From: Tetradesmus obliquus
Taxonomy: Eukaryota; Chlorophyta; Chlorophyceae; Sphaeropleales; Scenedesmaceae
Direction of reading: 5' to 3'
DNA: 64,000 nucleotides
Assembly: GCA_030272155.1 (NCBI GenBank)
Contig: CP126204.1
Span: 4,269,501-4,333,500, forward strand
The notes beneath the pieces are model-generated. The model made no database searches. It was not told the origin of the DNA and worked only from the letters and a program-made list of their open reading frames with translations. Of the stretch, positions 14,034-63,761 are shown piece after piece; within the stretch, counting starts at the first letter, position 1, and each line of letters opens with the position of its first letter. The position numbers and the translations under genes were made by a program.

Positions 14034-17000
14034 TTGCAAAGAAGGCGGAGCAGTTATCCCGGCAGTCCATCAGGGTGCGACCGCAGCTGGATGCTTGTGT
14101 TATTGCTGCTGGGCGGCTGCTGGCGGGGCGTTATAACACGCCTTGTGTTAAGTCCTGGTTTGAGGGCTTTCAAGCCAGGGCTGGGGTTCAAGCAGATACC
14201 CAGGCCTCTGCAGGCACTGCTGCTGCTGCTGCTGGGGGCAGCGCTACAGCTGCTGCTGGTTCTGCTGCTGCTGCTGCTGGCAAGCACTGGCTCATCATGC
14301 AGCTGAATGCTGCAGTGAGCCAACTGCGCAGCAGCAGTAGCAGTAGTGCTAGTACGTCCAAGACCAGTGCATCTGCTGGTGCAGGTGCATCTGCTGGTGC
14401 TGGTGCCACTGCTGCTGCTGCTGAGGGTGAGGCTGGGGGCCTGCTTGGCAGTGGCGTGATCAGGCCTGCAGGGCTGCTGCAGCTGGACACTCCCAGTGCT
14501 GCTGCTGCTGCTGCTGCTGCAGTATCTCTGGCAGCAGCAGCACAGCGTGCCGTTGGTGCTGCTGGCCAGCAAGCAGCAGCCGGGGCTGACAGCAGCGGCA
14601 GCTTTGCTGCTGCAGTGCAGCAGTTGTTCAAAGCAGCTGCCAGCACAGCAGCTGGAGCTGGCTCTACATCTTGTCAGCAGCAGCAGCAGCAGCAGCTGTT
14701 GTTGAGCTGCGAGGCTGCTGCAAAGGCCATGCTGTCAGAGCTAGCTGCTGGCATGGCTGCTGCAAAAGCAGCAGGTGCCGGCAAGCCAGCTGCCCCTGGC
14801 AGTAGGGTCTCAGCAGGCCTTGAACCACTGACAGCACTCTGCAGGACGCTGCTGCTGGAACACGCAGCAGCAGCAGCAGCAACAGCACCAGCATGTGCTG
14901 GTGGTATTGCTATCGGCCTTCAGCAGACGCTCAGTGAGGCCAGTCTGTGTGGGCTGCTGTCTTGCTGCTTCACATGTGTGCTGCAGCAGCTGCTGGCACT
15001 GCTGCAGACGCAGAACAGTGCTGCAGGCAGCGTCTTTGGCTCTGGGGTTCAGTGGGCTGTAGCAAGGGCTTTGTTACAGGCTGCTAGAGAGCTGCTCACT
15101 GGCAGCAGCAGCAGCAGCAGCAGTGTTGCTGCAGCAGCAGGGCCAGCGGAACCTGCGCAGGACAGCAGCAGCCAGCAGCAGCAGCAGCAGGTGCAGAGGT
15201 GTGTTTTGGATGCTGTCATGGCATCAGCAGCAGCCGGCATTGTGCTGCTGCCTGATGTGCTGGCTGAGCTTCTGGACGCTCAGCGCTACAGCAGCAGCAG
15301 CAGCAGCAGGCAGCTTGCGCCACAGCTGCAGGCACTGCTGCTGCAGGCAGTACTCGGACCCGGCTGCTGGCAGCGGCCGCTAGCAGCAGCAGCAGGCCGG
15401 AATGAAGCTGTACTGGAGCTGCAGCAGGGTTTTGATCGCTGTGGTTTGGATGAGGGTCAAGGCAGTACATTCAGCAGGCTGCAGGCTGTACTGCCTCCTG
15501 ATGCTGTGATGCAGCTGCTGCAGGAGCCACTGCTGGCAGCTGTAGTGAGTGGGCTGCAGCAGCAACCCAACAGCAGCAAGCAGGAAGCAGCAGCAGTAGC
15601 AGCAGCAGAGCAGATGGGCCTGCGGCAGCAGCAGCAGCAGCACGCAGATGTGACAGCAGCTGCAGCAGCCTTGATGGCACACCCAGCCCTACGCTGCTGC
15701 CTGCTCACTGATGTGAAGCTGCTGTACAGCAAGCTAGCAGCAGCACCTGTGCAGCTGCTGGGAGAGCTGCTAGGCAGTACCGACAGGTCAGCTTTCTGGG
15801 CACTGCCCCAGAGGCTGGCAGTACAATCTGTACTGCTGGGTGTACTGCTTGTCATGACGCCAGCAGGACAGGTGGCAGTACAACTGCCAGCAGCAGCAGC
15901 AGGTTCAGGCGTGCAGCAGCAGCAGCAGCAGCAGCAGCATGCGGCAGCCGTGGCAGAAGCAGACGGCAGGCAGTCAAAGAGGCAGCGCTTGGTGAATGGT
16001 GCAGCAGCCGCAGCTCCAGCCAGATCTCACGCCAGCAGTAGCAGCAGCAGCAGGCAGCCGCAGACCTCCTTCTGCCTGGCTGTGCCCGGCCTCTCTCCCG
16101 CAGTGCTGGCAGCCGGTGCTGCTGCTGTGGGCGCTAACTTAAGCCCTGCTGCCGTACCCTACCTGCTAGCTCAGCTGGAGCTGCTGGCAGGGCTTAGGGG
16201 CAGTTTAAACCCTGGGGTGCCTTGGCTGCTGCTGCGGCTGCTGCTGGATGAGCAGATGGTGATGGAGTGCCTGGGGGCAAAGTGTGATAGTAAGGGGAAT
16301 GCTGACGGCACTGCTGCTGCTGCTGGGCTGGGTGGTGGCAAGGCGGGGCCTGCAGCGGGACCTCAAGGCTGGCTTGCGGTGAGTGTGTGAGGGTTATTTT
16401 TGTTTTGGGACTTGATTCTGTGGGTGTGGTGTGGTGAACCCTGGGGTGCCTTGGCTGCTGCTGCGGCTGCTGCTGGATGAGCAGATGGTGATGGAGTGCC
16501 TGGAGGCAAAGTGTGGCAGTAAAGGGGATGGTGGCGGCGGCGCTGCTGCTGCTGCTGCTTCTCGGCTGGGTGGCGGCAAGGCGGGGGCGTCAGCGGGTCC
16601 TCAAGGCTGGCTTGCGGTGAGTTTCATGTGTGCTGTAATGTAGCACAGAGCGTTTCTCCATGCTTATAATACAGTCGGGTCCAGGCATTGACTACCAGAC
16701 GGTGCGAGCCACTGCTACTGTATGTCGCTCTGTGCCGGCAGGAAGGAGTGCCGCGCGTGGCTGCACATCTTGAATGCTTGTTTGGAACATGTTCAGAGCG
16801 TTTGGGCGCAAGTGAACATGATGATTAGCCACCCTCTGCTGCTACATTTAGGGTTGTTGCCGCAACACCGCCACTGCTGCTGCCGGTGCTGCTGCTGCTG
16901 CTGCTGCAGGCTTTGGAGCTTGCTGCGCCCCTGATGCCTGGTGGAGGCAGCAGCAGCAGCAGCAGCAACGGCAAGCCCTCCGCTCGACCTACGCAGCAGC

Positions 17001-18077
17001 AGTCCTCGGCAGCAGCAGGCGCGGCAGCAGCAGCAGCAGTGCTGGTAACACACACGGAGAAGAACCTGGTTGACACGCTGCTGCTGTCGGTGGCTCGCTG
17101 CCCTGCCTCTGCACTGGCTGCTGCTGAGCTGGTGGCAGGTGTAGCCCCGGGGGCTGCTGAGTACCTGCTGAAGCGCGTGGACTGGCTGCTGCAGGTGTGG
17201 CAGCAGCGGCATGTGACTGCGGCTGTTGGGATGCACTTGTTGCTTCGGCTTGCCTGCTTCTTTGTGTTGGCTGTTACATTTTATTGCCTAGCTGCTGCTG
17301 CTGGGTCCAGATATCCGGGTGTGAGAGCGTTTTTGGAAGCAGTTTTGTTGTGTCATGTGTGTGTGTCTGCGCCGACTGCTGCTGAGCTGGTGGATGGTGT
17401 GGCGCCCAGTGCTGCTGAGTACCTGCTGAAGCGCGTGGACTGGCTGCTGCAGGTGAGATAGACTGTGTTGGACTGATTTTCTGTGAGTGGAATGGCTGCT
17501 GCAGGTGAGGTTCCCCTAACCGACAGAGTGCTGTTTGGGTGCTTTAGTGTCCGTGTGGTGCCGGGTGCTGCCGGGTACCTGTTGAAGCGCGTGGACTGGC
17601 TGCTGCAGGTGTGGCTTGAAGTAGAGTGAAATGACCAGCACTGTGTGTGTGTTGGGGAGCATGTGTACGTGTGGTAGCCATGCTGTTGCCACGTCAGCAG
17701 CAGCAGCTGCTGGCAGCAGGCCAGCATTAGCAGCACAAGGTGTAGTCGGCAGCAGCAGTAGCCAGCCTGTGTGTGTTTGGGTGCATGTGTGCGTGTGGTA
17801 GCCCCCTAGGCCAGCGGAGTACATGGGAACTGGCTGCTGCAGGTACGGGACTGTGCCTGGCATGCATGTATGTTGCTGGGCGGCAATGCCTCGCTTTGCC
17901 GGGCTCTGCATGTTGTGTCTATCTGCTGCAGCGAGGGAAGCTTTTGAGCTGTGTGCAGTGATGTGTTTGCCAGCACGACTGCGGCCCATAGCGGCAGGCA
18001 TGTAGCGATCCTGGGAACGTGCACACCTCCATGCTGTGATGATTCATGGTGTGTCCTCAGCTACGACATGCGCCCTG

Positions 18078-18153
<76 letters not shown>

Positions 18154-18267
18154 GCTGCCACTGCAGGACCGTGGTGGCGCCTGGCTGTCAGGCCACACCT
18201 CCCTCAGCCTGCTGCTGAGCAAACTGGAGCAGGCACAAGTAGTGGCAGCAGCAGAAGCCGCCGCTGC

Positions 18268-18299
<32 letters not shown>

Positions 18300-20501
18300 A
18301 TCATGCAGCTGGCAACCCGTCAGCAGCAGCAGTACTGATAGGTCCGACTGTGGCTGCCCCTGCGCCTTTTGCTGTGGAGGCAGCGCTGTCCGATGTTGTG
18401 CTGCTGCTGCTGGCGCGATCCTCGTATGCACGGCAGCGCGAGTTTGCTGCTGAAATGGTGCGGCAGCTGACACGGCTTGTGGAGCTGCTGAAAAGGGCAC
18501 CGCCTCCTGCTGCTGCTGTTGCAGCAGCAGGGGCAGTAGGCGGTGCTGACGCTGCTGTTACAGGCAGTGTCCAAGCAGCAGCAGCAGCAGAGGTGGTACC
18601 AAAGGCAGCTGCTGCTGCCAGCAGCAGGGCAGCATCACTTGCAGGAGGAGCAGATGACTCAGCCACCCCACCAGCAGTGCCGGCAGCAGCAGCAGCAGAC
18701 CCAGCGCGCCGCACGCCCCCACCGCCAGCAGCAGACTACACAGGGCATCGCCGCACGCCGCCGCCGCCACCAACAGATGCGGGCCGTCGCACCCCGCCGC
18801 CACCAAGCGCCTTTGGAGATGCCGGCCGGCGCACACCGCCGCCGCCACATATGCATGCTGCGGTCCTTGCTGCTGGTCCTGCTGGGTGGGGCGGCAGCTT
18901 ACCAAATAGCCCAATGCTGCCTCCAGGGCAGCCGCCGCCACCACCACGAAGCGGTGATGCAACGCATGACCAGTTGCAGCAGCAGCAGCCACATTATCAG
19001 CAGCAGCAGCAGCATGGTGGGGCTGGGTACCCTGGCTACTACCCTCCACCGCCACCTCCCCCAAACCACAGTGCTCCTGCTGCTGCTGCTGCGCCTGCTA
19101 GTATGCACGCTAGCGATGCAGCACCAGCAGCAGCAGAGGTGCCAGTGACAGCAGCAGCATCAAAAGGCCGCCGGTTTGGTGCAGCGATCAGGGGCGCAGC
19201 AGCAGCAGGCGCTGGCGGGGCAGCAGCAGCAGGGACAGAAGTCGGTAGCAGGGGCAGCAGCTTCACTGGCGGTGCAGCAGCTGCTGCCGCAGGTGCTGTA
19301 GCTGGTCAGGCAGCACTGGGTGATGGTACAGCTGCCGCAGCTGTACTGCCTGGAGACAGAGGAGGCGGTACAACTGTACTGCCTGGTCGTCCGACTAGTG
19401 GTACAGGCGGTACACTGCGGGGCATACTAGCACCAAGCAGTACAGCCGGTGCAGGCAGTACAACTGGTGTAGGCAGTACAGTAGAGGTTGGCAGCCCGGG
19501 CGGGGTGCAGGTGTCCGTGTGGCTGCGGTTGCGGCTGCTGCTGCCGCTGCTGCCAACTGTCAGGGCAGATCGTGAGCCAGACAGTAAGAAGAACCTGCGA
19601 GTGTGCCTGGCGCAGACGCTGCCTCACTTACTGGTGTCTCCTTATGTACGTGCGGGGCCTGCTGCTGCTGATGATGATGATGATGGTGTTATCGACACCA
19701 CTGCTGGTGCAGATGATCTTGCGCAAGCTGCCGCTGCTGCTGCTGCCGAGGCAGGGCATCCGCTGTTTGATCGCCTGCTGCTGATGCTGTCTGCGCTGCT
19801 ATCTGGAGAGTGGGCTGGCTGGCTGCGAGGAGCTAATCGAAAGCTAAGGCAGGTGGCAGTGCCTGCAGCACTGGCAGCAGCATGCAGGGCAGAGATAGAA
19901 GGCGCACTGCAGGTGCCGGCAGCAGCAGGCGGCGGCTGGCAGCAGCAGCAGATGCTGCTGACAGTGTCACCGGGGACTCCTCTTACAGCAGCAGCAGCAG
20001 CAGCTGGGCATGTTGTTGGAGACCATCTACATGCAGTTAAGGCGCTAGTGCATGCACTGTGGCAGCAGCAGCAATTGCATGGCAGCAATCAGCAGCAGCA
20101 GCAGCAGCAGCGGAAACTGCCGCTACAAGGGCTTGCCAGCAGGTACAAGCATCGGGCGCTAGCAGCGCTGCCGCTGCCTGGCACGCAGCACCTGGAGCTG
20201 CCAAGCATGCTGGTTGCACCAATGCAGCAGCAGCAGCAGCCTGACAGCATTGAAGGGCTTGCTGTTGCATCGGCAGCAGGAGCTTGTTCGACACTGAGCC
20301 TACAACAGCAGCGGCAGCAGCAGCAGCAGGCTGTTCCATGTGCCTGGGATGTCTGGCAGCCAATGTGGCCTCTGCCGCATGATGCTGTTGCCACGTCAGC
20401 TGCTGCTGCTGCTGGCAGCAGGCCAGCAGCAGTGGCAGCACAAGGTGCAGTCGGCAGCAGTAGCAGTAGCCAGCCTGCAGGCATAATGAGTCCTGGGAAG
20501 A

Positions 20502-20539
<38 letters not shown>

Positions 20540-20764: not shown

Positions 20765-21574
20765 CATTTGCAGTGATGGAAGGCCGCTGCGGCCTGTTCT
20801 TGGCTGCAGATGCTGCATGGAATCTGTACATAATTAACAGCGCGTTTACATGTAACCACATGTTTTGGCGATCTGGCTGGCGACATGTGATCATGCACAT
20901 CAATGGTGTGTATCAGACGCGCTTGGGTCCAAGCCCCGGGGGCTAGGTGACACAATCAGAGTAGGCAGACAGCACACATGCTGTGCGTGCCAGCGTTTCC
21001 TCCTTCGTTACAGCGTCATTTCACAGCCTGCCAACAGCAAATCCTTGAAACTACCCATGTGCCAACAGTGTATGTTGTTTCTGTAACTCCATAAGAGTTT
21101 TACAAGGAGCTGGGGGCCAAGGATACTACAATGCCTTCAGAACTCTCCATCCGTCAACTACCCCAGTCAAATGCATGCTGGAATGGCTTGTCTATTCTGT
21201 CCTGGCGTTGGTGGAAGAAACCTTGAACGCTGGCAATGTACAGTAAAGCTAACGCAGGCACTGCAGATTGTCGTGAGATGTTGCAGCCAACACTCCATGA
21301 GGTACAAGTGCAAAAGTGATTATGCAAACAGCTGCAACACACCTTGCTCTGCGTCGCGCAGAAGGTCAAAAAGCAATCAATGAGTATACACATGTGGAGC
21401 TTTGGATTGTCTCCACCCTAACACTGGCCGTAGGCACTCAGCCCAGCCCATGGCGTCGCGTCTTGGCAAGCATTGGTGTTCGGAAGCACACGTGCCCACA
21501 ATACTCATGTACACGCTGAGGTGTTTCAGCCACCAGGCTACGCACTGCAACCACAGCAGCCTTGCGGCCCACAT
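20765..21574. other. Convergent 3' region, MED12 and HSPA12-like
   Basis: Holds the 3' UTRs of two converging genes. Plus-strand TGTAA lies at 20851-20855 and 21082-21086 (MED12, 90 and 320 bases past the stop). Minus-strand TGTAA lies at 21100-21104 and 21008-21012 (Hsp70, 470 and 560 bases past its stop), so the two transcripts may overlap. No gene is seen here. Confidence 0.5.
21082..21086 (+). terminator. TGTAA polyadenylation signal, MED12
   Basis: TGTAA 318 bases after the MED12 stop; a second candidate is at 20851-20855. Positional support only. Confidence 0.35.
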
Positions 21575-22671: not shown

Positions 22672-22743
<72 letters not shown>

Positions 22744-32217: not shown

Positions 32218-32465
32218 CACACTCACACCCAGCCGCCCAGGTCTGTGTTGGCGCCTTGCAGCATGGGTGGCACCAGCCAGCTAATGACACACAGCCGCCC
32301 AGGTCCATGCAGCTGCTCATGCAATGGCTGTGGCCCTCACACCTAGCTGCATAGGTCACGGGAACTGCTCTGCAGCAAACATGGCCGATCACACCCAGCC
32401 ACCCAGGTCTTGTGTGTTGGCCCCCTGCAGCATGGGTGGCACCAGCCAGCTGATGACACCCTCCT
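32218..32465 (-). repeat. Copies of the phosphatase gene's last coding bases
   Basis: The final 70 coding bases (SWLVPPMLQGAN ... LGGWV, 32389-32460) recur at 32222-32290, with stop codon kept but one codon (Gln) absent, and partly at 32283-32315. The copies lie in the 3' UTR. Confidence 0.85.
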
Positions 32466-32773: not shown

Positions 32774-35308
32774 TGAGTACCTAGTACTGGATGGAAGGAG
32801 CTTGCACTGAAACAGCAGCCCCAGGGGGCCCTCACACATGCAGAACAAGCCTTGCAAAGTGTCAAGGTTGGCTGTCTAACGGCTTCAATTTGGCCGCTGT
32901 GGCGGCTGCAGAGCTGGTGCAGCAGCTTGCCCTGACCATAGCTTGTTGATACTTCATGCCACACTTGTGCACTGAGAAGCCTGCGCACCTGCTCCTTTTG
33001 CCCTCCAGTGTTGCCGTACACGTACAGCGGGTCGTCAATGTCCTGTGCGTCAGTCAGGCTGTTCCTCTTGCCCAACACCGGGTGGAAGGAACCCAGCACG
33101 GGCACACAGCTCAAACAATGCTCAGCACCCCCGGCAGCCACACACATGCACAACCTGCTACCTGTTTGCGGCACAAATTTCTTGTTTGCTAAGCCGGCAG
33201 CTGGTGCAGCAGCATGCACTGGCAATGGGTTTGTGACTTGCTGCATTGTACCAGACATACTTTTTTGCACGCACCTGCTCCTTTTGCCCTCCAGTGTTGC
33301 CGTAGAGCGGGTCGTCGATGTCCTGTGCGTCAGTTAGGCTGTTCCTCTTGCCCAGCACCGGGTGGAAGGAGCCCAGCACACGCACACGCGCGCTGTAGTA
33401 GCCCCCAGGGTTTATCAGGTCATATGAAGACACCTGCAGTGCATTAAGAGCAACTTTCATTGTGATAGAAAGGATACTTGAATCTGTGCAGCACCGCTTG
33501 TTTGGCGCAATCGTAGAGCACCTGTGTACAAAAAATTGTGCAACGAGCAGAGGTAGCAAGGTCAGCAGCAGCAGCACCGGGTGCAAGGAGCCTAGAACGT
33601 GCACGCGCGCTCTGCAGTAGCCCCCCGGGTCGATCAGGTCACACGACGACACCCGCGGAGCATGAGGAGCGGGTTATCGCCGGCGCTGCTGCTGCTGCTG
33701 CTGTTGATTGCATTATTCTGTCGCCACCATCCAGGCAGTGTTGCCGCGTTAACATGCACGTGACATGCATACAGCAGGTCGCTGCTTGCTGGAAAGTGCA
33801 ACCCAAACAAAGCCTCCCGCACCTCCCGCAGCACATCTGCTGCGGTGTGCTTTTCCATCACCATCACAAGGCTTGATGCCAGCAGCAGGGTCAAACAACA
33901 AGTGCAGCAGGCTGGCGCATGATAAAAAGCAAGAAGTAAACGCCACACAGCAAAACAAAACCTCGCGCACCTCCCACAGCACATCTGCTGCCGTGTACTT
34001 ATCCATGACCAGCACCAAGTCAGATGCCAGCAGCGGGGTCAAACTGCACCAGGCTTATTATTATGTTAAGTTGCAGCCCTATCCTGCTGTACAAGCCAAC
34101 TAGGCAACACTGCTATGGCTGAAGCAGTGACCAAGTACAGCAAGTTGTTGCCGATTGCTTGAGTAAAACCAACACACCACACAGCCAAACACAACCTGCC
34201 GCACCTCCCGCAACACGTCTGCTGCTGTGTATTTGTCCATGACCAGCACCAAGTCCGACGCCACGATGTCAGCAGCAGGGTCAAACTGCACCGCACCACC
34301 TGCTGCTGCTGCTGCTGACTCAGCCGCACCATCTGCTGCTGCTCCTGCCAGCGGGGCGCCAAGTGCTGCTTGCGCCACTGCATCTGCAGCGGGGTGGGGC
34401 TGCTGACCAATGCAGTAGTCGCGGCTGGCCTATAAGCAGCAGAAGTGCGTGGCGGCAGCAGCAACAGCAGGTGCATTCATTACAAGGATGGTATGAGGGT
34501 GGCTGCACCTCAAAGTGCAAGCTTAACAATGACAATGGCATGTGCACACAGTTAGTTCATTGGGACATATCTGTATGATGTGCCACACATGGCTGACGGG
34601 CCGTGCCACACTGTACGTCACATGCAGCAATACTCTCACTTCAAACCACTCACCCGCACATGCACGTCCACCCAGCCCCGCAGCGGGCCGCCTGCCAGCA
34701 TGTGGCTGAACAGCTGCTGGGCAGCACTGCACTGAACCACACATGCAGTAAAAGTATGCTTGCATGCATTCACCCATGGCCGGCACTGTTTGTAAGCAGC
34801 TGCGGACAGCGCAGCGCTGCCCTGCACGGTGCTACACATGCAGCGGGCGCTGACGGGTTTTAATTGCTCACCCGCACGTGCACGTCCACCCAGCCACGCA
34901 GCGGGCTGTCTGCCAGCATGTGCCTGAACAGCGCTGCTGCCAGCGGGCCCCTGCAGATGCCGCTCTCGCTCACAAACATAATCTGGGCCTGTGAGGGCCA
35001 AGCAGCAGGAGCAGCAGCAGCAGCAGAGGCTGTAAGAGGCAATGTAAACAGGCCAAGCTATCAGGCATGTTGGCCAGTGCGTACAGGCACCACTTGCCCG
35101 AGCGCTGGCTGTGGCATGCTGCTGCAATGCTGAGCCTTGCAGCAGGGCTGCCTGAGCTGTAACAACAACATGCAGTAAGCTGTTAGCACAACTGTTTTGT
35201 ATACTCGCATCGCACCCGCTGCGAACGCTGTACAAAGGTGCACAGCAGATGCTGCATCTGCCTAAGTGAAGATCTCCGCAGTTCGGGGGTACTTCCGCAG
35301 TAGGCGAG

Positions 35309-39382: not shown

Positions 39383-41344
39383 TCAACGCCTGTGACGCTT
39401 GAGTGGCGATGAAGCTGCCGCTGCTGCTGCTTCATGTGTGCTGCCGCGTGTGCGCTTCTCACTACCGACGCTGTGTCGCACGCTACCTTCCCCAGCTGCT
39501 GCCACCGCCGCACCCTTAGGCAGCTTGCCATGCTGCTGCTGCTGCTGCTGTTGCCGGCCTGATGGCTTGTCATGCCGGCGCTGTGCAGGCCTGCTGCCGC
39601 TGCCTTCTCCATCAGATGACGCAGCTGCTGCTGCTGCTGTGTGCCCTTGCTGCAGCTGCTGCTTGCTGCTGGGCAACCTGCCACTACTGCGCCGGCCAGG
39701 TGCTGGCTGCTCAGCAGGCGCTGCAGCAGCTGCTGCAGCGTCCTCTTGTGCTGCTTTACCCTCCTCTGGCCCCTCCTCATCTTCACCCAGCCCTGATAAC
39801 GCAGCTGCCGCTGCTTCCAGCCCTTCTGCGTCTCCAGGCTCTCCATCCTCCTCATCTTCACTTCCATCTTCACTCTCGTCTTCACTTTCATCTTCATCCT
39901 CACCTTCATCATCTTCTTCATCGTCATCATCGTCTTCCTGGTCTTCCCGCTCTGCTGCCAGCAGCTCTGCCAGGATGCGGGAGCCTGGGTTGACTTCCTG
40001 TTGCTGCAGCTGCAGCTGCTGCTGCTCATCCTCTTGATCATCACTTTCCAGCCCCAGTACCCGCCGCCGCTTGCGCTGCTGCTGCTGCTGGTCCTTGCCG
40101 GCAGCGCCAGCACCCCTGCTGCTGCCAGCCGCAGGGCCCCTGGCAGCCAGCTGCTGCTGCTGCAGCTGCGGCCGCCGCCGCTTCCTGCCGCCGCCTGCAG
40201 CTGCTGCGCCCTGGTCCCCTGACTGCCCGCTCTGATGCTGTGAGCCACTGTGCGCATCAGCAAAGTGCTCATCATCTGCTGCTGCTGCGGCTGCTGCTGC
40301 CGCGCGCGATCCAGTTGCCCTGGTTGCTGTCGCTGCATCAGACGTGCCAGCGGGCCGCTGCCCGCCTGCTGCTGCTGTCCCCGCTGCTATGAGGTGCTTC
40401 TGGGTGTCTGCCAGCAGCTGCCGCACCTGCACACACCACGAGTTCAGTGGCAGCAGCAACAGCAGCATGGGCGCAGCAGCATGATTGTGGAAACATGCAC
40501 GGCAAAAGTGCACACAGAAGAACAGGAGGTGTTCAGCCCTGCACCTGCTCCACGCCTGACAGGCTTGCTAACATGACACACACCCACAACTTCGATACAC
40601 GCGTCTAGCACTGATGCCTTGGCTCCCGCTTCTGCCCACAGGCATGACTGGAAACAAGCCGTCCCATCCCTGCCTATCCTAACACATGCCACCCACTAGT
40701 ATTGTTGGTTGGTAGTGGGGCAGATTCAGGGGCAGCAGAGACTCAACAGCACAAATTCATCCCTGCTGGCTGCTGCCAGGCACCCACAACCTGTCCTTTA
40801 GTGCACCAACTGCACTGCTGCAGTGGCTTTCCCTGTACTCCCACAGACAACTTGATGATGAGCCAGCCCAGTCCAACGCACTGCACCACCCCACGCACCT
40901 GCTGCCTGCTGCCAGCTGCCAGGCACCCAGGCCCTGTCCTTCAGTGCACCGACTGCACTGCTGCTGTGGCTTCCCCTCTACTTCCACAAACACTATTGTT
41001 GATGAGCCAGCTTAGATTAACCACGCGCTGCACCACCCCACCCACCTGCTGCCTGCTGCCAGGCACCCATGCCCTGTCCTTCAGTGCGGCACCTGCGCTG
41101 CCATCAGCCCACTCCGACAGCCCAAACAGCTTCGGCTGCTGCTCCGGGCCCTCAGCCTTGGCCAGAAACATGTTGCACACAAAGCCAGGCACCAGCTGCC
41201 GCCGCTGGCTGAACAGGCGCGTCTGCAGGGCCTGCGGCAGCTGCGAGGCTTTGGCCGTGCTGCTGGCGGCTGCTGCTATTGCTGCTGCTGGGGGTGGCGC
41301 TTGCTGGTAGGGTAGCTTGGAGCCGGAGGGGAGGAACAGCACCT

Positions 41345-41392: not shown

Positions 41393-44300
41393 GCACGTGA
41401 GTACATCAACAGCAGGAAACAAAAAGCTGTATGCCTTACACTCCTGGTAGGCCCGGGGCCCCCAAGCCCATCACATACCTGCATGTGTGAGTTGTTACTC
41501 CATACCATGCTGATCAACATAGCGCTGAGCAAGGCTACTCGATCCAGGACACTCTCCCGGCATTATTTCATCCCAACAACCCCTTCTCACCTCTGCTGTG
41601 CCCATCACGCTCCCCATGGGCACTGGCCCACCCTCAGCAATGCTCTCCTCACACATTTCCATACTGTCTGCCAACCAAATCACATGCTGACACCACCGGT
41701 GCGCAGCATCACACGCCCAAAGCCCAACACAAACAAGCCGTGGGTACATTCCAGCATCAACCTTGGGTCATGTCAACCTAGGGTTGGCCGCACCTCTGCT
41801 GTGCCCATCACGCTCTCCATGGGCACTGGCCCGTCCTCAGCGCCGTCCTCTGCTGCCTCATCCTCCTCATCGCTGCTGCTGGCATCTGACCTGGGGTCCT
41901 TGGTCTCGTGGTTGCTGAACACCACCTGTGGCAGCAGCAGCGGCGGCAGCAGCAGCTATGGTGGGTAGAACTGCGCTGTGATGTGTGCCGCCGCGACAGA
42001 AGAATTTGTTTGTTGAAACAAATTGCAGCGGCTGCAATCTGCTGACATCTGTAGTGCCATTCGTATGTAACACTCACGTAGCGCATGCCGAAGTGCGTGG
42101 GCGGCGTGCGCCCTTGCTGGAGCACGCAACCTGGCTGCCGCTGCTGCTGCTGCTGCTGCTGCATATGCCTGGTGTCCTTATCCACGCATGCACTCCCAGC
42201 CATGTGTGCAACACACACACTCACCTAGCGCATGCCGAAGTGCGTGGGCAACGTGTACCATCGCCAGCAAGTGCACCCTTGCTGCCAGTGTCGCTGCGCA
42301 CTGCTGCCGCGCACTGCAGCTGCACAATGCCGGCATATGCAGTGCCATGCGTATGCAGCACTCACGTAGCGCATGCCGAAGTGTGTGGGCGGCGTGCGCC
42401 CGCAGCCGCGCTTCCGCAGCAGCGCCTCCACGTCCTTTTCTTGTTGAGTGATGCCCAGGTTGGTCAGCGCCTTGGCCAGGCGCCGCGTGTTGTTGCTGCT
42501 GCCCTCGATGGCGTCCACCAGGTCCGGCCAGCGGTAGAAGTAGGTGACCTGGAAAAGGAAAAACATGAGGTGGATTGCAAGCAGGCGGTCAGGAGTATTC
42601 GGCATGAAGCAGCAACGATCCGGCGCCGCGTGTATTTGCTGCTGCCGTCGATGGCGTCCACCAGGTCAGGCCAGCGGTAAAAGTAGGCGACCTGGCGCAG
42701 TGATAGGTTGCGGTGAGACAATGCAGTCAAACAGTGTGGCGAGCCAGTGCATTGCACTGCAATGCACTGCAGTGTACCGCACCACGCTTCGATGTTACGG
42801 CTCAAACACCACACTGCACTGCAGATACAGTGGCAAAAGCAGCAAAGCCCACGCAATACCACCAGCGGCGCTGCGCCCACTTGCAGTTAAAAGTGTTCCG
42901 CTGCAATGCCACAGCACAACACCGCATTTCACAGCAACACAGAAATCAAGCGATGCACTTGACCGCCAGCAATAACACGTCAATCCAGCTGCAGCTAAAA
43001 GTGCTGTGCTGCCACATCCTGGTATCACACTGCACTGCATAACACAGCAGCGCAGGACTGAGGCACTACACAAACCACACAATAGCCGCACCAGCACGCC
43101 ACCCCACCTGCAGCTGCAAGTGCTGTGCGGCTACGCGCCCTGCCGCGATTTGCCGCCGCTCCCACTGCTGCACCTCAGGGGCCGTGCCCTTCACCTCCTG
43201 GTGGCCACACAAAAACATCAACACAAGCAGTACCCACAAAACCACCAGCAAGAAGTAAACACGTCATAACTCTACACTTATTCCGATACACAGTGACCAA
43301 CATCTGCGCAACCGAACACAGCTCCAGCACCCCACCTGCAGCTGGAAGCGCTGTGCGGCCACGCGCCCCGCCGCGATCTGGCGCCGCTCCCACTGCTGCA
43401 CCTCAGGGGCCGTGCCCTTCACCTCCTGGTGGCCGCACAGCAACATTCGACACAAGCAGTACACACAACACCACCAGCAAGAAGTGCTGCACAGCCACGT
43501 CATACCTCTCCACTTTTACTGCGATAGACAGTGACCAACATCTGCGCAACCCAACACATCTCCAGCACCCCACCTGCAGCTGGAAGTGTTGTGCCGCCAC
43601 ACGCCCCGCCGCGATCTGCCGCCGCTCCCACTGCTGCACCTCAGGGGCCATGCCCTTTACCTCCTGGTGGCCGCTGGCACAGCTTGCATCACCACCGGGC
43701 AGGAACCAGATGCGGTTCACGCGGCACAGCCACGGCGGCGACACAATCTGCGCGTGCGCGCTGCTGGCGTCTGCGAGCAAAGCAGGTTCGATAGTACAAG
43801 GGTGGCCAGAAGCGCGCACGCAGGAGTGGTATGAAGGGCAGGTGCTGTATGCTCTGCAGTGTTGTTGACATAGGTATTGCAGTTGTGTTGTGCGTGTTGT
43901 CAGCACAATGCTGCTCTAGCATCAGGCTGCCACACGATGCTCTGAACTATTGCGCTGCTCAACAATCGTTCACTGAACATGTCTGCTGCTAGTCAGTACT
44001 GTCTGCTGCTGCAAGTGCAGACTGTTACGCATGCCCGCCTCCACGCACCTGACGGCAGCACCAGCACGAAGCTGCCCTCCGCCACCTTGAACTGCTGCGG
44101 CGCGGAGCCCCTCCTGTAGCCGCCAGTGTCCAGCACATCATCCATCAGCAGCGCCTGACGCAGCAGCAGCAGCAGCAGCACATGAGATGTGATTTGTGTT
44201 GGCGTGCAGTGACCATCAACAGTCAGCGGCCCTGCGATGTTCCACAGACCGTACACCAATGCCACCCCCTGCTGCTGCTGCTGTTGCTAGCTGTGGACGC

Positions 44301-46980: not shown

Positions 46981-49641
46981 TCAAGCTGGAGCTGACACAT
47001 CGCCAAGGCATGTGACGTTCTGGAACACCTGCCCTGCCTGCTTCAGCCACGTCTGGTTCCACAGGCACGTGGCAGCGCGCGAGAAGTCCCCGCTGAGCCG
47101 CCGCTGCACGATGTGTGCGCACATGCGGCACTCATTGGTGCCGCCTTGTAGCATGGCGTGGTAGCGCTGGTAGCCAGGGCTGAGCTGGTGCAGCTGCAGT
47201 GCACAACAAGGAAATTTTGCAGCAATAGCAGTTGGTGAAAACATAGGTGAGCAGCAGCAGCAGGCTCTCTCAATTACCAAAGGTGCTTTAGATGTCCTAT
47301 GCAGCAAACTGAACACGCACGAAGGCATGAAGGCAGGGAGGATGCGTGAGCACAGACACGCCTCAACAAACGCTCTGCACAAGAAGCAAAACACATCACA
47401 CACTCACCGGCTTGTGCTTCCATGCAAGCATGCGCTCATATCGGCTGCGATCTGCCATTATGTCAGCCACCAGCGCATCCAGCTGCTGCACACCCACACC
47501 CACCTTTCCTGTCCAAAATTTGGGGCACATAATCTCGTGCCAGCACATGCATGCATGCACAACGTCAGCGCCAGAGCCAGCTTCAGCCCTGCTTACATGT
47601 GTGAAGGAAAACTCTCCCTCTACAATTTCACCAGCAAGCACACCCGTGCACAGACACGCCTGAACAAACGCTCTGCAGACAAAGCAAAACACATCACACA
47701 CTCACTGGCTTGTGCTTCCACGCAAGCATGCGCTCATAGCGGCTGCGATCCGCCATTATGTCGGCCACCAATGCGTCCAGCTCCGCCACAGTGCTGGCGT
47801 TGCCGCCTTGGCCATAAATGATGACCGCCTGCGGCTCGGGCAGGATGTCCAGAATGTTTGAGGAGCCCTTGTAGATGGGCACACAGCCTGCAAGGGGCAA
47901 TTTTGAAGAAAATAGTGCGGTGAGCGATCTTTGATCGAAAGTGGCACCCAGGTATTTTTATTTCCTCCGTGCTCGCCATGCTTATTGGCTGCGTGCGGCT
48001 CTGGCATAATGTCCAGAATGTTTGAGGAGCCCTTGTAGATTGGAACGCAGCCTGCAGGGGGCAGCAAGCCATGCAAAACCAGTGCAAGCCACAGCAGGGC
48101 GTGTCCAGGGTCGTGATCTGGTCAGTTCGGGCATGATGTCCAGCACGTTGGGCGAGCCCACAGCATGCAAGGATTCAGCCAATGGAATCAACAGTAACAG
48201 GAATGCTACGGCGTTCACGTGGCGGCTGTGGGTAATGTGCAAGGTTGTGCGAGCACGGTGCCCGTGTGACCATACAAGCAGCAGCTGGAGGAGATTCAGT
48301 GAGTCCACAGGTACCGCAGCACGGCAGCTGACAATTTGATACAGGGCTGGTGTTCAACAGTGTTGCGTGTTGCTTGTCGCAATAACAGCGCTGGTTCGTT
48401 TGCAAGCAGCAGGCGCACCTGATGACAGCGCGTCCCAGATCTTCTCTGTAATGTAGTCGAAGGAGATGCTGTTCTCCATGGCCACACAGAACTTGTACCT
48501 GCAGGCACAACAGTCAGCAGTGCATGACGGCAGGATCAGCAGCGGTGCCTACAGAAACCTAAAGTCTCTGCCTGCAGCGCGTGCAATAGAGGCGCGGTGG
48601 TACAGCACTTTACAGCAGCAGCTTCTGATGCAGTGCCTGCTGAGCATACCACTGCATGCCAAGCATCTGTGTAGAGCATTGCTTTGGTCTGCCCGACACG
48701 ACAACACGTGTGCCCTGCCGTGTGGGTAGCCACATCACAACATCTGCACTCCAACCGCTTCCCACAGCCCAGCATGCAGCATGCTCCACAGTAGCACCAA
48801 CCCACACCCACACCCCACCCACACCCTCAGTACACCCAATAGATGTCTTTAGGGCCCGCATGCATGCATGCATGCAGCATCACACCGCCTCTCAACACCG
48901 CTCACCGCTGGAACACCTCCCTCTTGCTCAGCTTGCGCCCCTGCTCCTCAGGCCACGGCTTGTTGTTGCTGCAGGTGCCAAACGCATGCACGGCTGCCCG
49001 CGCATTTGGCAGCGTCACCCACTCGGCCATTATCTTTGCCCGGCCACTGGGACTGCCACAGTTGCTGTTGATGTATGCAACGCCATCCTGCTTCTGCTCA
49101 TAGGGGAGCTCCGGCGCATGCACCATGTTAGTGCCCGTGACAAAGTCGTGCTGCGTTTCGTGGTGCATCGTGGACTGCACTTGGCTGCAGGAGCGGTATG
49201 TTGCTTCGCTCTCATAGCTGCACGGGTGAAGTACAACACAGACAGGGACAGGCAGGTCACATCCAGCAGCAAACACAGGCAGTCAGTGGTATGCCGCATC
49301 ATGGACTGCACTTGGCTGCAGGAGCAGTACGTGGCTTCACTCTCCTAGCTGCAGGAGCAAAGTTCGAACAGACGGAGACAGGCCAGGGACACTGAGAAGA
49401 TTGCACAGGCTTGAGTGAAATGCTGCCAGTGCTCAGATGAAAGCGCCTGCCGGTGATGCGGTTAGGCTGCGCCAGTAGAATCATCATACTACCGCAGCAT
49501 CACACCGTGCTACGCATAGCCAGTCAGTTGCTCACTTGCACATGTAGTGTGGGTCGTCTATCCAGTTGTAGTATGCTGCTGACTCAAGCGACACCGCAAA
49601 GCGTATCTGCTTCGGGTGCTGCCTCGGCGGAATGCCGCTAG

Positions 49642-52742: not shown

Positions 52743-54525
52743 CGTTCCAGCCTGGCAGCTTTGATGTTGTGGTGGACACCTTTGGCCTGTGCTCCTGCAA
52801 GGACCCTGCTCAGGTGAGGTTGGTCCCATGCATCAGTTGCGTGTGTTTCTTGTATGGTATTTTCAGGTGCGTTGCAAGTGTGAAGCAGCATTCTTGCAGA
52901 CAAGGAAGCAGTGTTCTTGCAGACACCCGTGTGCAGGAAGGGCAGGCTGAAGTCGCTGTGTCAGCATGTCGCACTGTTAGGCAGCAAGCGTGTTGGGCAG
53001 CTGTCGTGTGGCCTGTGCTCCTGCAAGGACTCTGTGCAGGTGATCCGGGGATGACGTGGCAGCTCTGCATGTACCTTGGTTCAAATTTGTTTAAACATGG
53101 AATTCGAATTGTTTAAACATAGAAGTGGAGTGAAGCATTGTTCCTGCTGACGCTCGTACGAAAGCAAGTCAGGCTGAGGTTGCTGCGCCACACACGATGC
53201 ACCTTCAGGCAGCGAACCTGGTGGGCAGACACTGTGTGGGGGATTCAACACATCACGAAGCCATCCACGTAACCATGCATGCACTCCCTTCTGCCTCCGT
53301 CTGTGCAGGCGCTGCAGCAGGCGGCTGCGCTGCTGAAGGCTGGCGGCAAGCTGCTGCTGCTAGAGCACAGGAAGAGCAGCTGGGGCTGGCTGAACAGCCA
53401 CATACATCCTATCTGCCATGCCATAAAACCAAGTACACCGTCCTGTGTAGACCTGTAATGTGTCGATGGCATGCTGGTGCTGCAGGTGCTGCAGCAGGCT
53501 GCTGCGCTGCTGAAGCCTGGCGGCAAGCTGCTGCTGCTGGAGCACGGGAAGAGCAGCTGGGGCTGGCTCGATAGCCACATACATCCTGTCCGCCACACAC
53601 TGAAACCAAGTACAACGTCCTGTGTAGACCTGTAATGTGTCAATTGCGTGCGGGTGCTGCAGGTGCTGCAGCAGGCTGCTGCGCTGCTGAAGCCTGGGGG
53701 TAAACTGCTGCTGCTGGAGCATGGCAAGAGCAGCTGGGGCTGGCTCAATAGCCACATGGATGAGCGGGCAGCAGGGCACTACAGGCAGTATGGCTGCTGG
53801 TACAACAGAGACATATTGGACATCGTGCAGCAGGTGCGCCTCCTGCCCAACAATTGACGGTTTGGTGAAGTTCCTTGTTGGATTGTGCTTTGCACATTAT
53901 ACCTGCATGTGTGTGCAGTCAGGAGTTGTGGGTAGCCTGCACTTCGCTGCGTGTTTGCAGGTTTTAAATGTTGCCCAACAGCATGCCATTTGGTGAACCG
54001 GATTCATCCAAGTGTGCTCGTCTGCAACATCGTTTTTGGGCAACCCAGAAAGATGCTGGCTCGCAACATGTGCCTCACCCATCCCGACTATTTGTTTGCG
54101 CCAACTTCTGAGTGCAGCAGTTGCCTACACTCCACTCAATCTGCAGCTGTCAGCTTTGCGCATTGGCTCACTTCAAACGTATCCTACGCTGAGCTTGTGG
54201 CCGCTCCTCTGCAGCATGTGCTGTCAGCACGCCGGGCTGCAAGTCACCTTGTGTTTCAGGTGGCACCTTGGCACCTAATTGTTGTTCCTCCGCTGTGCAG
54301 GCATTTGAGGATGTGCCTGCCCTGCTGCTGCACTGCATGTCGTGCCCGCAGGCTGGGCTGCAAGTCAGCTCTTCATCCAGGTGGCACTTTGGCACTTCTT
54401 ACCTGATTGTCGCAACAGCACCGGCAGCAGCGGCAGGTGCTGCTACCGAGGCGGCTGGAGCTGGTGTGTCAGCAGCGGCAGGTGCTGCGGCCAGGGCGGC
54501 TGGCGCGGGTGTGTCAGCAGCTTGA
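51348..54525 (+). CDS. OMS1-like SAM-dependent methyltransferase
   Basis: Class I methyltransferase similar to yeast OMS1, a mitochondrial inner-membrane protein. Exons: 51348-51584, 51751-51861, 52187-52813, 53663-53833, 54352-54525, all phase zero, 439 residues. ATG 51348 opens a short hydrophobic segment (GSAAFAASVYGGYTIG). Motif I, the SAM-binding loop, is GDVLEISAGTGRNLPHY; motif II SFDVVVDTFGLCSCKDP; motif III LLKPGGKLLLLEHG, followed by RQYGCWYNRDI, typical of OMS1. Exon three carries an insert of about 110 low-complexity residues between ADAERL and SFDVVV. Introns one and two begin with GC rather than GT (CAG then GCGAGT; CAG then GCAAGT). TGTAA lies 257 bases after the stop. Substrate unknown. 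Confidence 0.85.
52156..52186 (+). repeat. (CTG)n tract forming an OMS1-like 3' splice site
   Basis: GGCTGCTGC... nine CTG units ending in CTGCAG right before exon 52187. Confidence 0.85.
52780..53045 (+). repeat. Copy of OMS1-like exon-three end
   Basis: GGCCTGTGCTCCTGCAAGGA occurs at the exon end (52784) and again at 53010, followed in both by CAGGTGA-type donor sequence. Confidence 0.85.
53308..53765 (+). repeat. Three copies of the OMS1-like motif III exon start
   Basis: LQQAAALLKPGGKLLLLEHG is encoded fully at 53663-53765 and as upstream partial copies at 53310-53405 (one Pro to Ala, Gly to Arg) and 53487-53585. All three follow TGCAG. The two upstream copies are followed by nearly the same 70 bases (CAAGTACA, GTGTAGACCTGTAATGTGTC). 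Confidence 0.92.
54235..54405 (+). repeat. Upstream copy of OMS1-like last exon start
   Basis: GGGCTGCAAGTCA ... CAGGTGGCACTTTGGCAC of the last exon has a copy at 54235-54278 (GGGCTGCAAGTCACCTTG, CAGGTGGCACCTTGGCAC). Confidence 0.85.
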
Positions 54526-54781: not shown

Positions 54782-54786
54782 TGTAA
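54782..54786 (+). terminator. TGTAA polyadenylation signal, OMS1-like gene
   Basis: TGTAA 257 bases after the stop at 54525. Positional support only. Confidence 0.35.
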
Positions 54787-59200: not shown

Positions 59201-62200
59201 TCATCAGCATCATCAATAACTTGAGCAATAGCCTGACAGGACATGAATGCATATTATGCAGATAGCATGCATGCATGTTTTGCAGATGGCATGCATGCCT
59301 AACATACAGATGGCATGCACACATATTATGCAGATGGCAGGCATGCCTATTATGCACAGACAGTCGACACGTGAGAACTGCTACATGCGCACCACGCTCA
59401 TATGCGCTCATCAGCATTCTCCCACCTGTGGCGAGCTTTGTCAGCTTTTGATCCACCAGTGACACCTTGTAGATCGCGCCATACTGCACTTTGTTGTCGG
59501 ACGTTTCATTGAACGTGCAAGCATCACATGCCGCACTTATGCCCACTACAAGGAACGCCTGTTCCTTGGGCACCCATGGCGGTGAGCCCCTCAGAGCTCT
59601 GCGGTTGCGGCAGCCGTCGTCGCCTGGCAGCTTGTTTGTCACAAGATCTCTCGTGCCTGCAAATTGCTGCATTTGTCATCGTGACAGATCTGTGTGAGGT
59701 GGAAGTCAACGTGCAGAACGTACTGCTCTGCCGAGCGTTGTTGACATGCTGATACTGACTGTCAGCATGCGATATCAGTGTTGCAGCAATTTGCCAGATC
59801 ATGCGCGTCTTACTGGATGACCAAGTTCTCACATTGTACAATGGTCACAATAGGAACTGTACGCGGTGCACAGCAAGCAGCCACCATGGCAACCTGCCAC
59901 TTACCGAATTGGGTGATGTCCAAGATGGTATATCCGGAAGCTTCCAAATTTGGCCCTCACCGGCGTCAAAGCCTGCTATGTAAAGATGACTACTGACAAC
60001 AGCAACCGCATATGGGTTTGTTATTAGGCCGTAGATTCTAAACACATTCATGACTCTGTCAGCACTGCCGCCAGCCTCAACAATATAGTACACATTGTGG
60101 CCAAGATAGTCCTTGACAGTTGTGGCGAAGCCTCCAAAAACAATGGTGGTGGAGCCTGCATGCAGAAAACATGCGGAGGAACCTGTGGTTGCATTTTTCT
60201 GCGAACTGCGAAAGTAAACTCTGAAAGTAAATGGGTTTTGCAGTCATACATTGCCACCAATTTGATGCACCATGCCATATGCCAACTCAGCATCAGGCAT
60301 GCATGTTGCAGCAACATATGGATGGGCATCCCAACACGCATTCAATTGTTGTCGCTTGTGCACCATCTGCAGCTGCAGACGAACGCGTGCCTTCTGAAAA
60401 GAATTTGCTCGTGGCAGAGGGTAGTTGCATAGGGGTCTGGCAACATCTTAGACGGTACAAGCCACAAGAGGATGAACGCAAGGTCCAAGACCAAAAAGCA
60501 AGAGAGCGACAACATGTGGTCGACTGAGTGTATTGACCGTCGGACAACATGTTTGTGACTTGCCTACACGCGCTGCTGTCAGCATCTTGATGTTGGCGAG
60601 CCCTTGAACCCATGTGGTAATGCTGAAGTTCTTGTATGCTGCCTGCACTGCATCATCTGCTTTGAGCTTGAACAGGTCAATGGGGGCGCTGCAATCAGTG
60701 TCCACGGAGTCAAAAGGACAACCTGCATGCAAACGCGTTGGGGTGCAGCAGCATCATGACGTGATTAGCCAATGCAAAAAAGCACTGGACTTGTTGCAAA
60801 CGCGCAGGGGTGCAGCAGCATTATGACGTGATTAGCCAATGCAAAAACGCACTGGACTTAAAGTGCAGCAAGCCCAGCACAGGTGCAGTGAACCAAGGCA
60901 CACGTGCAGCACAGCACAACACATGCGTACCTAACAGCAACACATGCGTCATGTGAATACAGGTACTTGTTTGCTGTAGATCCTGCACAACAGTCGGTTT
61001 AATCATTTGCCAACATGCAGCACCTGGTGGAGGCGGCGGGGAGCATGCACCCTTCACGTAGTCCCATCTGCTGCTGTTGCTGTTGGCAGAGCACTTCAGC
61101 TGGGGAGGGTCTGCAGCAGATGCGTTAGCAGACGTGTTGGCACACGCCGCTATGCAGGTTTCGCCGTCGAGCATGGGAAGCTTGCAGCTCCATACTGATG
61201 ACTTCCAGGCGTTGGTTGGCATGTCATCAGCAGTTGGCTGCACTTTGCATGTGCCTGCAAGTGCCCAGCAGCAGCAGCAGCAGCGGCGGCAGCAGCAATA
61301 GCAGTCAAGGTGGTATATATAGCAACACCTGGAAGGCAAGCATATGCGTTCAGACAGGCCTAACCACACAGGGATATGGCATTTTCGTCATTTTCTTGTG
61401 GCAATGCAACATGATATTGAAAACATGGCGACATTTGAAAACAAGGCCATGTGCTTATTTGATCATCAAGGCGCAGGCTAAGGCCAGCACTTGCGGCAAT
61501 CTATGCACAGAACTTGATGATGGAGGCAGTAGAGCACCTTCAGTACCAACATGCCATGTTAACGGTAAACCATACGCTCAGGACTGCTGTGTACACCCAC
61601 CAGTGCCTGGCACAGGGCTACACGAGAACGCTGGATCCACAGTCGGTTGTGCGTAATTTCCGCCAAAGCACCAGGCTGTAGGCGGCACCCCCTTGGCAGT
61701 TGTGTTGGCAGGACATGCTGCAACGCATCCGGCATCTGCTGCTGTGCCCAGAGGGCAGGTCCAGATGGCACGGCTTGGTAGCCAACTGCTGGGTGGGGGG
61801 CTGTTGCAGCGGGCATTGTCTGCAAGCAAAGAAAGTGAGAGGGGAGAGCATGCGGCAAGTTTGAACAAACATATGCATGGCAGCATGCATGCATGCATGC
61901 TGCCGATTGCAGCAGTATGCATGCACGCAAGGAGCTATGGCATGATATAAACTGCATCATGCTGCACAACAATTTGTTTAGGCATAGGGCGCCAGCGCTT
62001 TATGCAACACAGGCACGCATGCATACTGAGTGGGTGCCGCTGTCAGCTGAACTACTGTGGGCATCGCAGTGTCATGACAGGCATGAAATAGCCAGCTGAA
62101 GCGCTGGCAGACACAGCTTGCTGCTGGCATGTTACTGGCAATTGCAATATTGCCTCTCGCAATATCTTCAAGATGTTGTGAGCTAACGTTCTCAAGCTTT

Positions 62201-63761
62201 CTCGTGCTTACTCCGTGCACACTGCATGCTGCCCGTGGCGTTGCCAAACACGCCGTCTTTGCAGGGCACCGCCACCGGATCCTGCGACAGCTGCACGTAG
62301 CCGGCAGGGCAGCTTGCCACACAGAACGATCCACTAGGGGTGCTGGGAGGGCAGTTCCACGTGCTGCCGTCTGGCAAGTTGCTGGTGGAGGGGCCAGGGC
62401 GGGAGGGGCATGACGCGCCTGCACACAGCAGCACGGGCAGCAACGATGGGTTCGCCAACAGTAGCGAAAAACGGTATTGCCTGAGGATGTTATGCAACGC
62501 CTATTGGCCTCTACTGCCAAGTTCAGACCTGGTAAATACACACAGCGTAGAGAGCTGTTGCGCAATTATCCTACCACCGATCTGACTTGTCCCGAGCTGC
62601 TGGCAGATGCCGCCTGCTCCTGCACTGTAATAACCTCTTGAACCACAACCCACCTGCTTGAGAGCAGGTCAAGCTGGCAGTCTGCACTGCAAATGCTAGC
62701 AGGATCAGCACTTCCGTTATCACTGGCAGCTAATGAAGGCGGCTGCCAATGCATCCAGTGACTATCATTATTGCTGTGCTGCCCTTTGTGGCCACTGTTC
62801 CCCACGTTGAACTGGGTGTGGAAACCACGCGCACAGCATGAGGAGCAGCAGCAGGGCAGCTGCAACAATCTGCCTTGCGCCGAGCCACTGGCAGATGCCC
62901 CCAAGCTTGCTTCTGCACTGCCACAACCTCTTGAACAACAACCCACCTGCTTGAGAGCAAGTCAAGCTGGCAGTTTGCACCGGTTTTGCCGCGCGCCGCC
63001 TGTTCTGTATGGCCCAGGTGCCATTGGCGTTACAGGAGGCAGTCAGGGAGCCCTCAGCAGTGAAATACGTGTCACATTTGGCAGTGCAGGTGCCCCCAGG
63101 GGCAACCACACCAGCGCATGTCCAGCTGGAGTAAGCGGGCAGTTTGTTGCCATCTGGGGGGCTGACGCAGCCTGCAGCAGCAGCAGCAGCAGCAGCAGCA
63201 ACAACCGTAGCAGCAGCAGGGCAAGACCGGCAGTGTAAATTGCACGGTTTGCGACCCAAATCGTCATGTGCAGGCAACCAGCTGTGGTTTGCGACCCAAA
63301 TCGTCATGTGCAGGCAACCAGCTGTGGTCGGATGGCGCACTTACACAATGAAGGCATCAGCAGCAGCGATGCACAGTTGCGTGTCTCACAGCACTGTTTT
63401 GCTGCTGCTAGCAGCACTGGACCGCTAGCATGGCATCAATGCATTGTTGAGCTGCATAACACCATGTCTGGCCTGACACCGCATTTGTGGCATGGAATTC
63501 CTTGCCTGTTGGCACCCACCTGAGCACTTGAGTGTGTTGCTCTGAAGACTCCAAATGCCATCTGCACACACCATCTGCAAGCTGCCGCCTACTTGGTAGC
63601 CAGACGCGCAAGCCGCGCTGCATGCAGCACCATGTGCTGTTGCAGTGCCTGGGGTGCTGCAGGAGCCCCAGTCAGCGTTTGCTGGAGGTGTCTGTGGTGG
63701 AGGGTTGGCACAGGCTGCAGGGGGCGGTGGAGTGGGGCCTGGCAAGGCAATATGTCAAGCA

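Follow-up and report, generated by a model that had tools for sequence, protein, structure and literature searches.

Exon-edge copies in introns of Tetradesmus obliquus: local tandem duplication with persisting exon halves and splice sites

Why do the introns of several neighbouring genes of the green alga Tetradesmus obliquus carry repeated pieces of the exons beside them? The stretch that raises this question, hereafter the window, is 64 kb long (C14:4269501-4333500) and belongs to a genome of 104.66 Mb in 17 contigs. A preliminary description of the window had reported local, tandem, same-strand copies of exon edges, those of exon 3' ends lying downstream with their donor and those of exon 5' starts lying upstream with their acceptor, and had proposed a survey against random segments as one means of refutation. 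We sampled 264 kb on three contigs, consisting of the window and 100 kb each of C1 and C9, the latter two being fixed by coordinates prior to inspection. Exon edges were predicted by a purpose-written gene finder that was self-trained on the same sequence and learned clear splice signals (donor CAG|GTGAG, acceptor CTGCAG|G). In addition, the edges of three window genes were placed by hand from alignments with database proteins and shifted by up to 12 bases to the position with the best splice score. For each edge a 24-base segment was searched; a copy was defined as a match on the same strand with at least 83% identity (20/24) at a distance of no more than 1 kb. The donor segment took in positions +1 to +3 but not +5.

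In a self-BLAST of the window, 36 direct similarities had their two members within 3 kb of each other; all of them lie in 16,208-62,980. Among pairs less than 500 bp apart, direct and inverted ones stood at 34:4 in the window, 28:0 in C1 and 78:4 in C9; the excess is therefore head-to-tail. The C9 ratio includes a low-complexity stretch at 63-73 kb, which was excluded from the later counts. A downstream copy was found for 36 of 215 exon 3' edges and an upstream one for only 17 of the 215, while 20 of 196 exon 5' edges had an upstream copy and only 5 of 196 a downstream one. Antisense copies of these edge segments were found at 0 of 215 donors and 0 of 196 acceptors. By comparison, random intron segments had a copy in 6-11 of 310-317 cases in each of six runs (43/1876 overall, about 2%), and segments from exon middles in 3/123 and 1/123. 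The copy rate drops just within the intron (9/192 for +6 to +30 and 3/173 for -40 to -16) and holds just within the exon (33/213 and 25/216). When anchors that are possibly copies themselves were left out, 27 of 198 donors (7/41 in the window, 6/76 in C1 and 14/81 in C9) and 17 of 191 acceptors (6/50, 5/75 and 6/66, respectively) still had a copy. Of the protein-placed edges, 11 of 31 had a copy at 20/24 or better (8/14 donors and 3/17 acceptors), and the best matches of the other 20 scored 13-15 of 24 in 17 cases and 17, 18 and 19 in three. We concluded that exon-edge copies are real and are not confined to the window, being present on all three sampled contigs. The arrangement first described thus stands, both in its local, same-strand, head-to-tail character and in the direction of the copies, and it has withstood the proposed survey as carried out on the 264 kb.

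The copies form 77 pairs with their working exons, of which 59 cover part of an exon and 18 a whole exon. Neighbouring copies are spaced by 88-164 bp in 51 of 77 intervals, by 203-304 bp in 25 and by 380 bp in one, some intervals being seen from two anchors; copies at offsets of 30-87 bp were looked for and none was found. Partial copies have a median length of exon-side homology of 57 bp. Divergence had been said to rise with distance from the real exon, which the counts do not bear out: the farther copy was the more diverged in 14 comparisons and the less diverged in 16.

The exon and intron halves of the copies have fared differently. Over the first 50 intron bases, 36 of the 59 partial pairs were like unrelated introns (p>=0.05), 10 were clearly related and 13 lay between, and the exon-side divergence of those 36 pairs is 0-18%. 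With 60 intron bases, 23 of 59 were related at p<=0.01 when compared with random introns (mean z of the other 36, 0.47), and 20 of 59 when compared with dinucleotide shuffles (mean z of the other 39, 0.41; t 2.1). Because of this residual homology of the intron halves, the units were probably complete at their origin. An origin of copies cut exactly at the splice site, which the 36 of 59 on 50-bp windows had suggested, was given up in view of the 20-23 related pairs and the residual signal on 60-bp windows. Intron-side relatedness does not correlate with exon-side divergence (Spearman -0.09, p=0.52). Comparison between one intronic copy and another (24 pairs, drawn from 13 partial arrays, pairs within an array not being independent) showed exon-side differences at 74 of 720 bases (10.3%). 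On the intron side, 7 of these pairs were clearly related and 5 doubtful, and 12 could not be told from random introns; in those 12 pairs only 34 of 360 exon-side bases differ. For whole-exon copies compared in the same way, the intron side was indistinguishable from random introns in 9 of 11 pairs.

These comparisons bear on the explanation by plain neutral tandem duplication and decay, in which units at exon edges are easier to see since a fixed working exon halves the divergence. It would agree with a formation nearly blind to position (see below), with the residual homology of intron halves, with frame-breaking indels in the copies and with the 12 of 24 copy-to-copy pairs that have some intron relatedness left. 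The other 12, however, have lost the intron side while differing by only 9% on the exon side, a contrast that equal neutral rates could not produce. Moreover, edge segments exceed intron segments four- to eight-fold and not two-fold, intron relatedness is independent of exon divergence, and donor quality is retained although bases have changed. On the copy-to-copy evidence plain neutral decay is unlikely, and taking both sides together we regard it as improbable.

The splice sites of the copies point the same way. GT was kept in 33 of 35 donors of partial copies without strong intron relatedness, and G at +5 in 38 of 43 partial donor copies, including 15 of 16 whose +4 differs from that of the working donor. 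The median donor score over +3 to +6 was 1.80 for copies, 1.94 for working donors (p=0.065) and -1.06 for random intronic GT, under a scoring model trained on predicted donors of which some are themselves copies. Among acceptor copies, AG was present in 13 of 14, with a median score of 3.11 against 3.46 for working and -1.78 for random sites. The splice sites of the copies thus persist as function, not as letters, and spare splice sites do accumulate in introns as had been claimed. On the exon side, mismatches at codon positions 1, 2 and 3 number 72, 71 and 246 over the 77 pairs (third position, 63%) and 33, 29 and 95 in partial copies with unrelated introns (61%); by our own estimate, a neutral copy compared with a constrained exon would be expected to place about 46% at the third position. 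Stop codons number 5 in 1488 codons, whole-exon pairs included.

How the arrays form is a separate matter. There are 23 contiguous arrays of period at least 60 after merging, 19 of them with a period of 84-146. Being made of contiguous head-to-tail units, these are tandem repeats or minisatellites in the usual sense; many of the other pairs no longer have a recognisable spacer half. In 18 of the 23 arrays a predicted splice site lies in one of the two outermost units, against 13.0 +/- 2.4 under random placement (P=0.03); because the gene finder calls some copies exons, any real bias is at most as large as this overlap implies. The arrays seem to arise by ordinary local duplication that favours a certain unit size and is nearly blind to position. 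The preliminary description had inferred that exon boundaries themselves are duplicated: the excess at edges supports this in part, but the arrays touch splice sites only slightly more often than random. Since the edge signal comes largely from pairs with drifted intron halves and intact exon halves, selective persistence is likelier than a mechanism that copies edges. Intron gain by exonic AGGT duplication was rejected: among 425 predicted introns, matches of 20/24 or better were found in 0 between exon end and intron end (null 0.1) and in 1 between exon start and intron start (null 0.0), and at 16/24 in 3 (null 1.3) and 1 (null 0.2), respectively.

The explanation that we prefer, tentatively and as falling just short of probable, is one of tandem arrays anchored on coding sequence, in which exchange with the working edge and selection together would preserve the exon half and the splice site. 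Local head-to-tail duplication of units of about 85-160 bp is common in the genome and, as the contiguous arrays show apart from their weak excess at splice sites, largely position-blind. Where a unit happens to span an exon edge, its copy would fall in the intron and bring its splice site along, on the downstream side of a 3' edge and on the upstream side of a 5' edge. The exon body would remain attached to a working edge, so that selection tolerates the copy and the intron grows; four of six database proteins, which use each edge once, bear this out in part. The unit may then act as a minisatellite anchored on the working edge of the exon. Within the exon-like block, gene conversion or unequal exchange could refresh that block and its splice site and let units swap places with the working one, the intron halves being left to diverge. 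Most copies would probably be untranslated, with one occasionally recruited as an extra exon.

The individual loci of the window illustrate both the copies and the use that gene models make of them. The gene names of the preliminary description were compared with Pfam for seven predicted proteins or fragments. Fucosyltransferase, methyltransferase and low-molecular-weight phosphatase (just above the cut-off) were upheld, Med12 fell below the cut-off, and a fragment of the putative BAH gene and the protein over the putative sugar dehydrogenase had no match. In the MED12-like gene two exon 3' ends are copied:

16208..16384, + strand: 3' part of a working exon, first intron base 16379, copied downstream (self-BLAST, 88% over 186 columns)
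16437..16622, + strand: its copy, 229-238 bp downstream, donor GTGAGT kept
17108..17201, + strand: 3' end of a working exon, first intron base 17195
17366..17455, + strand: copy of 17108-17197, donor GTGAGA, intron side unrecognisable as related
17553..17615, + strand: a further copy of the edge at 17195, with donor GTGTGG

The phosphatase-like gene has copies at several exon edges and at the end of its coding sequence:

32389..32459, - strand: end of the coding sequence with stop
32223..32290, - strand: copy of that end in the 3' flank
33270..33387, - strand: 3' part of the working exon 33275-33433
32984..33107, - strand: copy of that 3' part with donor
33353..33451, - strand: working 5' start of the same exon
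33572..33670, - strand: copy of that 5' start, 219 bp upstream (81%; 19/24, so counted as a miss)
34174..34292, - strand: 3' end of a working exon, edge near 34176-34178
33940..34050, - strand: copy 1 of that edge
33803..33896, - strand: copy 2 of that edge (77%, under the edge-segment cut-off)
34867..34936, - strand: 3' end of a working exon, edge 34872
34649..34719, - strand: copy of that edge, 218 bp downstream

Translated, the copied coding end reads ANTDLGGWV and lacks the Q found in the working end; the protein P0017 agrees with the copy in this. Both P0016 (an OEZ86 model) and P0017 (from another source) use each edge once. P0015, which bears the same name as P0016 in the database, adds an intronic copy as an exon: bases 33066-32989, within the copy at 32984..33107, form its extra in-frame exon of 78 bp and 26 residues, whose acceptor scores poorly (-2.6).

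The next gene, called the BAH gene in the preliminary description, matches the protein OEZ86_008787 at 100% over the searched part:

40762..41101, - strand: array of units of about 143 bp including the working edge 41046
41791..41841, - strand: 3' end of a working exon, edge 41794
41588..41638, - strand: copy of that edge, donor GTGAGA vs GTGCGG, intron side not recognisably related
42316..42401, - strand: 3' end of a working exon, edge 42366
42028..42113, - strand: copy of that edge; another lies at +141
42479..42552, - strand: 5' start of a working exon, edge 42548
42622..42695, - strand: copy of that start, 143 bp upstream, absent from P0031 and with a counterpart in P0030
43566..43674, - strand: the working instance of a 90-bp unit, in the 3' part of exon 43574-43770
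43100..43436, - strand: the 90-bp unit twice more; the gene finder makes each copy an exon with both splice sites, and P0031 omits them

P0031, an OEZ86 model, uses each edge once, whereas P0030, a model of the OEZ85 assembly, has the 90-bp unit three times as well as both YFYRW copies. The middle 90-bp copy of P0030 encodes exactly the third copy of the present strain, which suggests, provided that P0030 skips no copy, that the 90-bp array has been reordered between T. obliquus strains.

In the fucosyltransferase gene three edges are copied:

47648..47790, - strand: 3' end of a working exon, edge 47706
47350..47492, - strand: copy of that edge, intron side still related; P0001 lacks the repeat
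47827..47899, - strand: 5' start of a working exon, edge 47887
47991..48063, - strand: copy of that start, 164 bp upstream, with Met where the working exon has Leu
49165..49253, - strand: 5' start of a working exon, edge 49217
49296..49383, - strand: copy of that start, 131 bp upstream, with a stop codon in the exon frame

P0001, a fucosyltransferase from another source with 98% identity, uses each edge once. The Met of the copy at 47991-48063 is found in P0001 and in the relative P0010 as well; therefore, this copy seems to preserve an older state. Two open reading frames on JGI-sourced contigs of relatives show similar arrays. One, P0013, reads through two clear copies of the 47706 edge with matching spacer text, and the other, P0014, holds a second IWDALSAG copy; at edge 48419, the counterpart of the edge copied in P0014, no copy was found in the present strain.

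The remaining similarities lie in the methyltransferase-like and the putative sugar-dehydrogenase genes:

52783..52817, + strand: 3' end of a methyltransferase-like exon, first intron base 52814
53009..53043, + strand: copy of that edge
53304..53757, + strand: 177-bp units in an array of 2.6 copies, in which exon starts are predicted
62580..62980, - strand: pair 62580-62687 and 62868-62980 (84%) in the putative sugar-dehydrogenase gene, neither overlapped by a predicted exon

That these repeats are an artefact of assembly is scarcely credible. Most copies are non-identical, arrays hold several different copies, and copies occur on all three sampled contigs; in addition, the protein model of a second assembly holds the same triple array, and the two open reading frames of relatives come from other contigs.

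The chief rival to the preferred explanation is that the copies are useful and are kept by selection for that reason; they might serve as alternative or mutually exclusive exons, as reserve splice sites or as intermediate sites for recursive splicing at CAG|GT. Splice sites of functional grade, the third-position bias of mismatches, the 18 of 77 pairs that cover whole exons, the 26-residue exon added in P0015 and the copied exons included in P0030 all speak for it, and the mild excess of AG-ended exons among those with copies (23/29 vs 107/181 others, p=0.04) would fit. Against this, the spacing of partial pairs is even modulo 3 (17/22/20 of 59), frameshifts are present in copies, and the acceptor of the extra exon in P0015 is poor. 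Four of the six database proteins for the three window genes (P0001, P0016, P0017 and P0031), all of them models, use each edge once. Acceptor scores of exon ends with and without copies are alike (p=0.49). As general accounts, in-frame use of the copies is unsupported, the spacing ignoring the reading frame, and recursive splicing finds no clear support, the AG-end excess standing beside equal acceptor scores. We judge selection on working copies, be it as spare or as alternative sites, unlikely as the explanation overall, though the data do not separate it from exchange.

Some arrays are discordant, the exon side of the working edge resembling one copy and its intron side another. The clearest case is the edge at C1 22953, where the exon side differs at 1 of 30 bases from the copy at +342 and at 6 of 30 from that at +220, while the intron side is related to the copy at +220. 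A weaker discordance between exon and intron is seen at C9 39327, in CTG-rich sequence. The support that discordant edges and the strain comparison may lend to exchange is thin.

Several points weigh against the preferred explanation. Exchange with the working edge is what we infer, not what we observed; discordant arrays are few, about 4 of 9 by hand count, three resting on one or two bases and one being CTG-rich; and the strain comparison presumes that P0030 skips no copy. Partial copies contain 10 frame-breaking indels as against 8 in multiples of three (55 copies), and therefore many copies are not recent working edges. The excess of AG-ended exons was not predicted. The third-position bias could partly come from changes in the working exon alone. 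As to method, the gene finder predicted 28 of 56 donor copies as exons, and the exon-half identity of 80-100% is in part fixed by the search cut-off: lowering this from 80% to 70% over 30 bases raised the donor edges with copies from 40 to 43 of 212 and the acceptor edges from 20 to 34 of 209, chance matches included.

Another way for a second edge to enter an intron would be recombination of strongly diverged alleles or lineages, which would have put a once-working edge together with its intron start there. This would account jointly for the strength and independence of the splice sites, the synonymous differences and the lack of relation between intron sides, and the two named T. obliquus assemblies are noticeably different in protein. 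It does not predict the regular unit length and the arrays of three to five copies, however, and the residual intron homology indicates complete units; no second locus with such an edge appeared for the two loci searched genome-wide, for which the best candidates only were scored. We therefore give this explanation a low probability.

Compared with known systems, the arrays anchored on coding sequence that we prefer share features with several. Local tandem duplication involving splice signals within a gene is described for ATP2A1 and the potato RdRp gene (PMC4974935); in potato RdRp an intron-exon structure was duplicated and a second duplication of 83 bp lies inside an intron. The T. obliquus copies resemble these in being local tandem duplications with splice signals in a gene, but they sit in existing introns, often several per intron, without a new intron between copies. 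The whole-exon pairs resemble tandem exon duplication and mutually exclusive exons; as a general description these fail, since 59 of the 77 pairs are partial and the spacing ignores frame. Like minisatellites, the arrays have head-to-tail units in several copies with similarity unordered by distance; unlike them, older arrays stay alike only in the exon-like part and keep splice sites of working grade. Introners (PMC9860276) are a source of new intron sequence, which the T. obliquus copies supply likewise. At the two loci searched genome-wide, however, copies stay beside their own exon and whole units form no dispersed family that could be seen: one locus matches itself only, and of the other just a stretch of about 42 bp recurs, at 7 places. 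That stretch, on the intron side at C1 2033345-2033388 (L006:3345-3388), is dispersed, the seven other sites in the genome having 88-95% identity. Literature searches aimed at exon-edge arrays found no paper on them, which is no proof of absence.

The arrays offer a concrete and testable route of intron growth. It is possible, though rather doubtful, that the process amounts to treadmilling, in which a working splice site is periodically replaced by its own intronic copy, so that the junction would behave as a concerted-evolution family while introns lengthen unit by unit; this may also underlie the long introns of other green algae. Craig et al. (PMC8226300) describe the introns of core-Reinhardtinia as conspicuously long and the driver as likely ancient; unit-wise duplication is a candidate for these introns, only a conjectural one. 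The T. obliquus introns are moreover a natural laboratory for splice-site choice, as many of them hold strong decoys in real exon context. Annotation is affected too: the gene models of the two T. obliquus assemblies treat corresponding copies differently.

Some further repeats were noted in the sampled sequence. The C9 stretch at about 2063000-2073500 (L019-L020) contains long low-complexity repeats with open frames of GLGDGLGD and QGLGWEQ type, which misled the codon training of the gene finder. Runs of CAG/CTG are very frequent throughout the window. At 63246-63328 of the window lies a perfect tandem pair of 40 bp (2.1 copies, 100% matches), a short and probably recent duplication.

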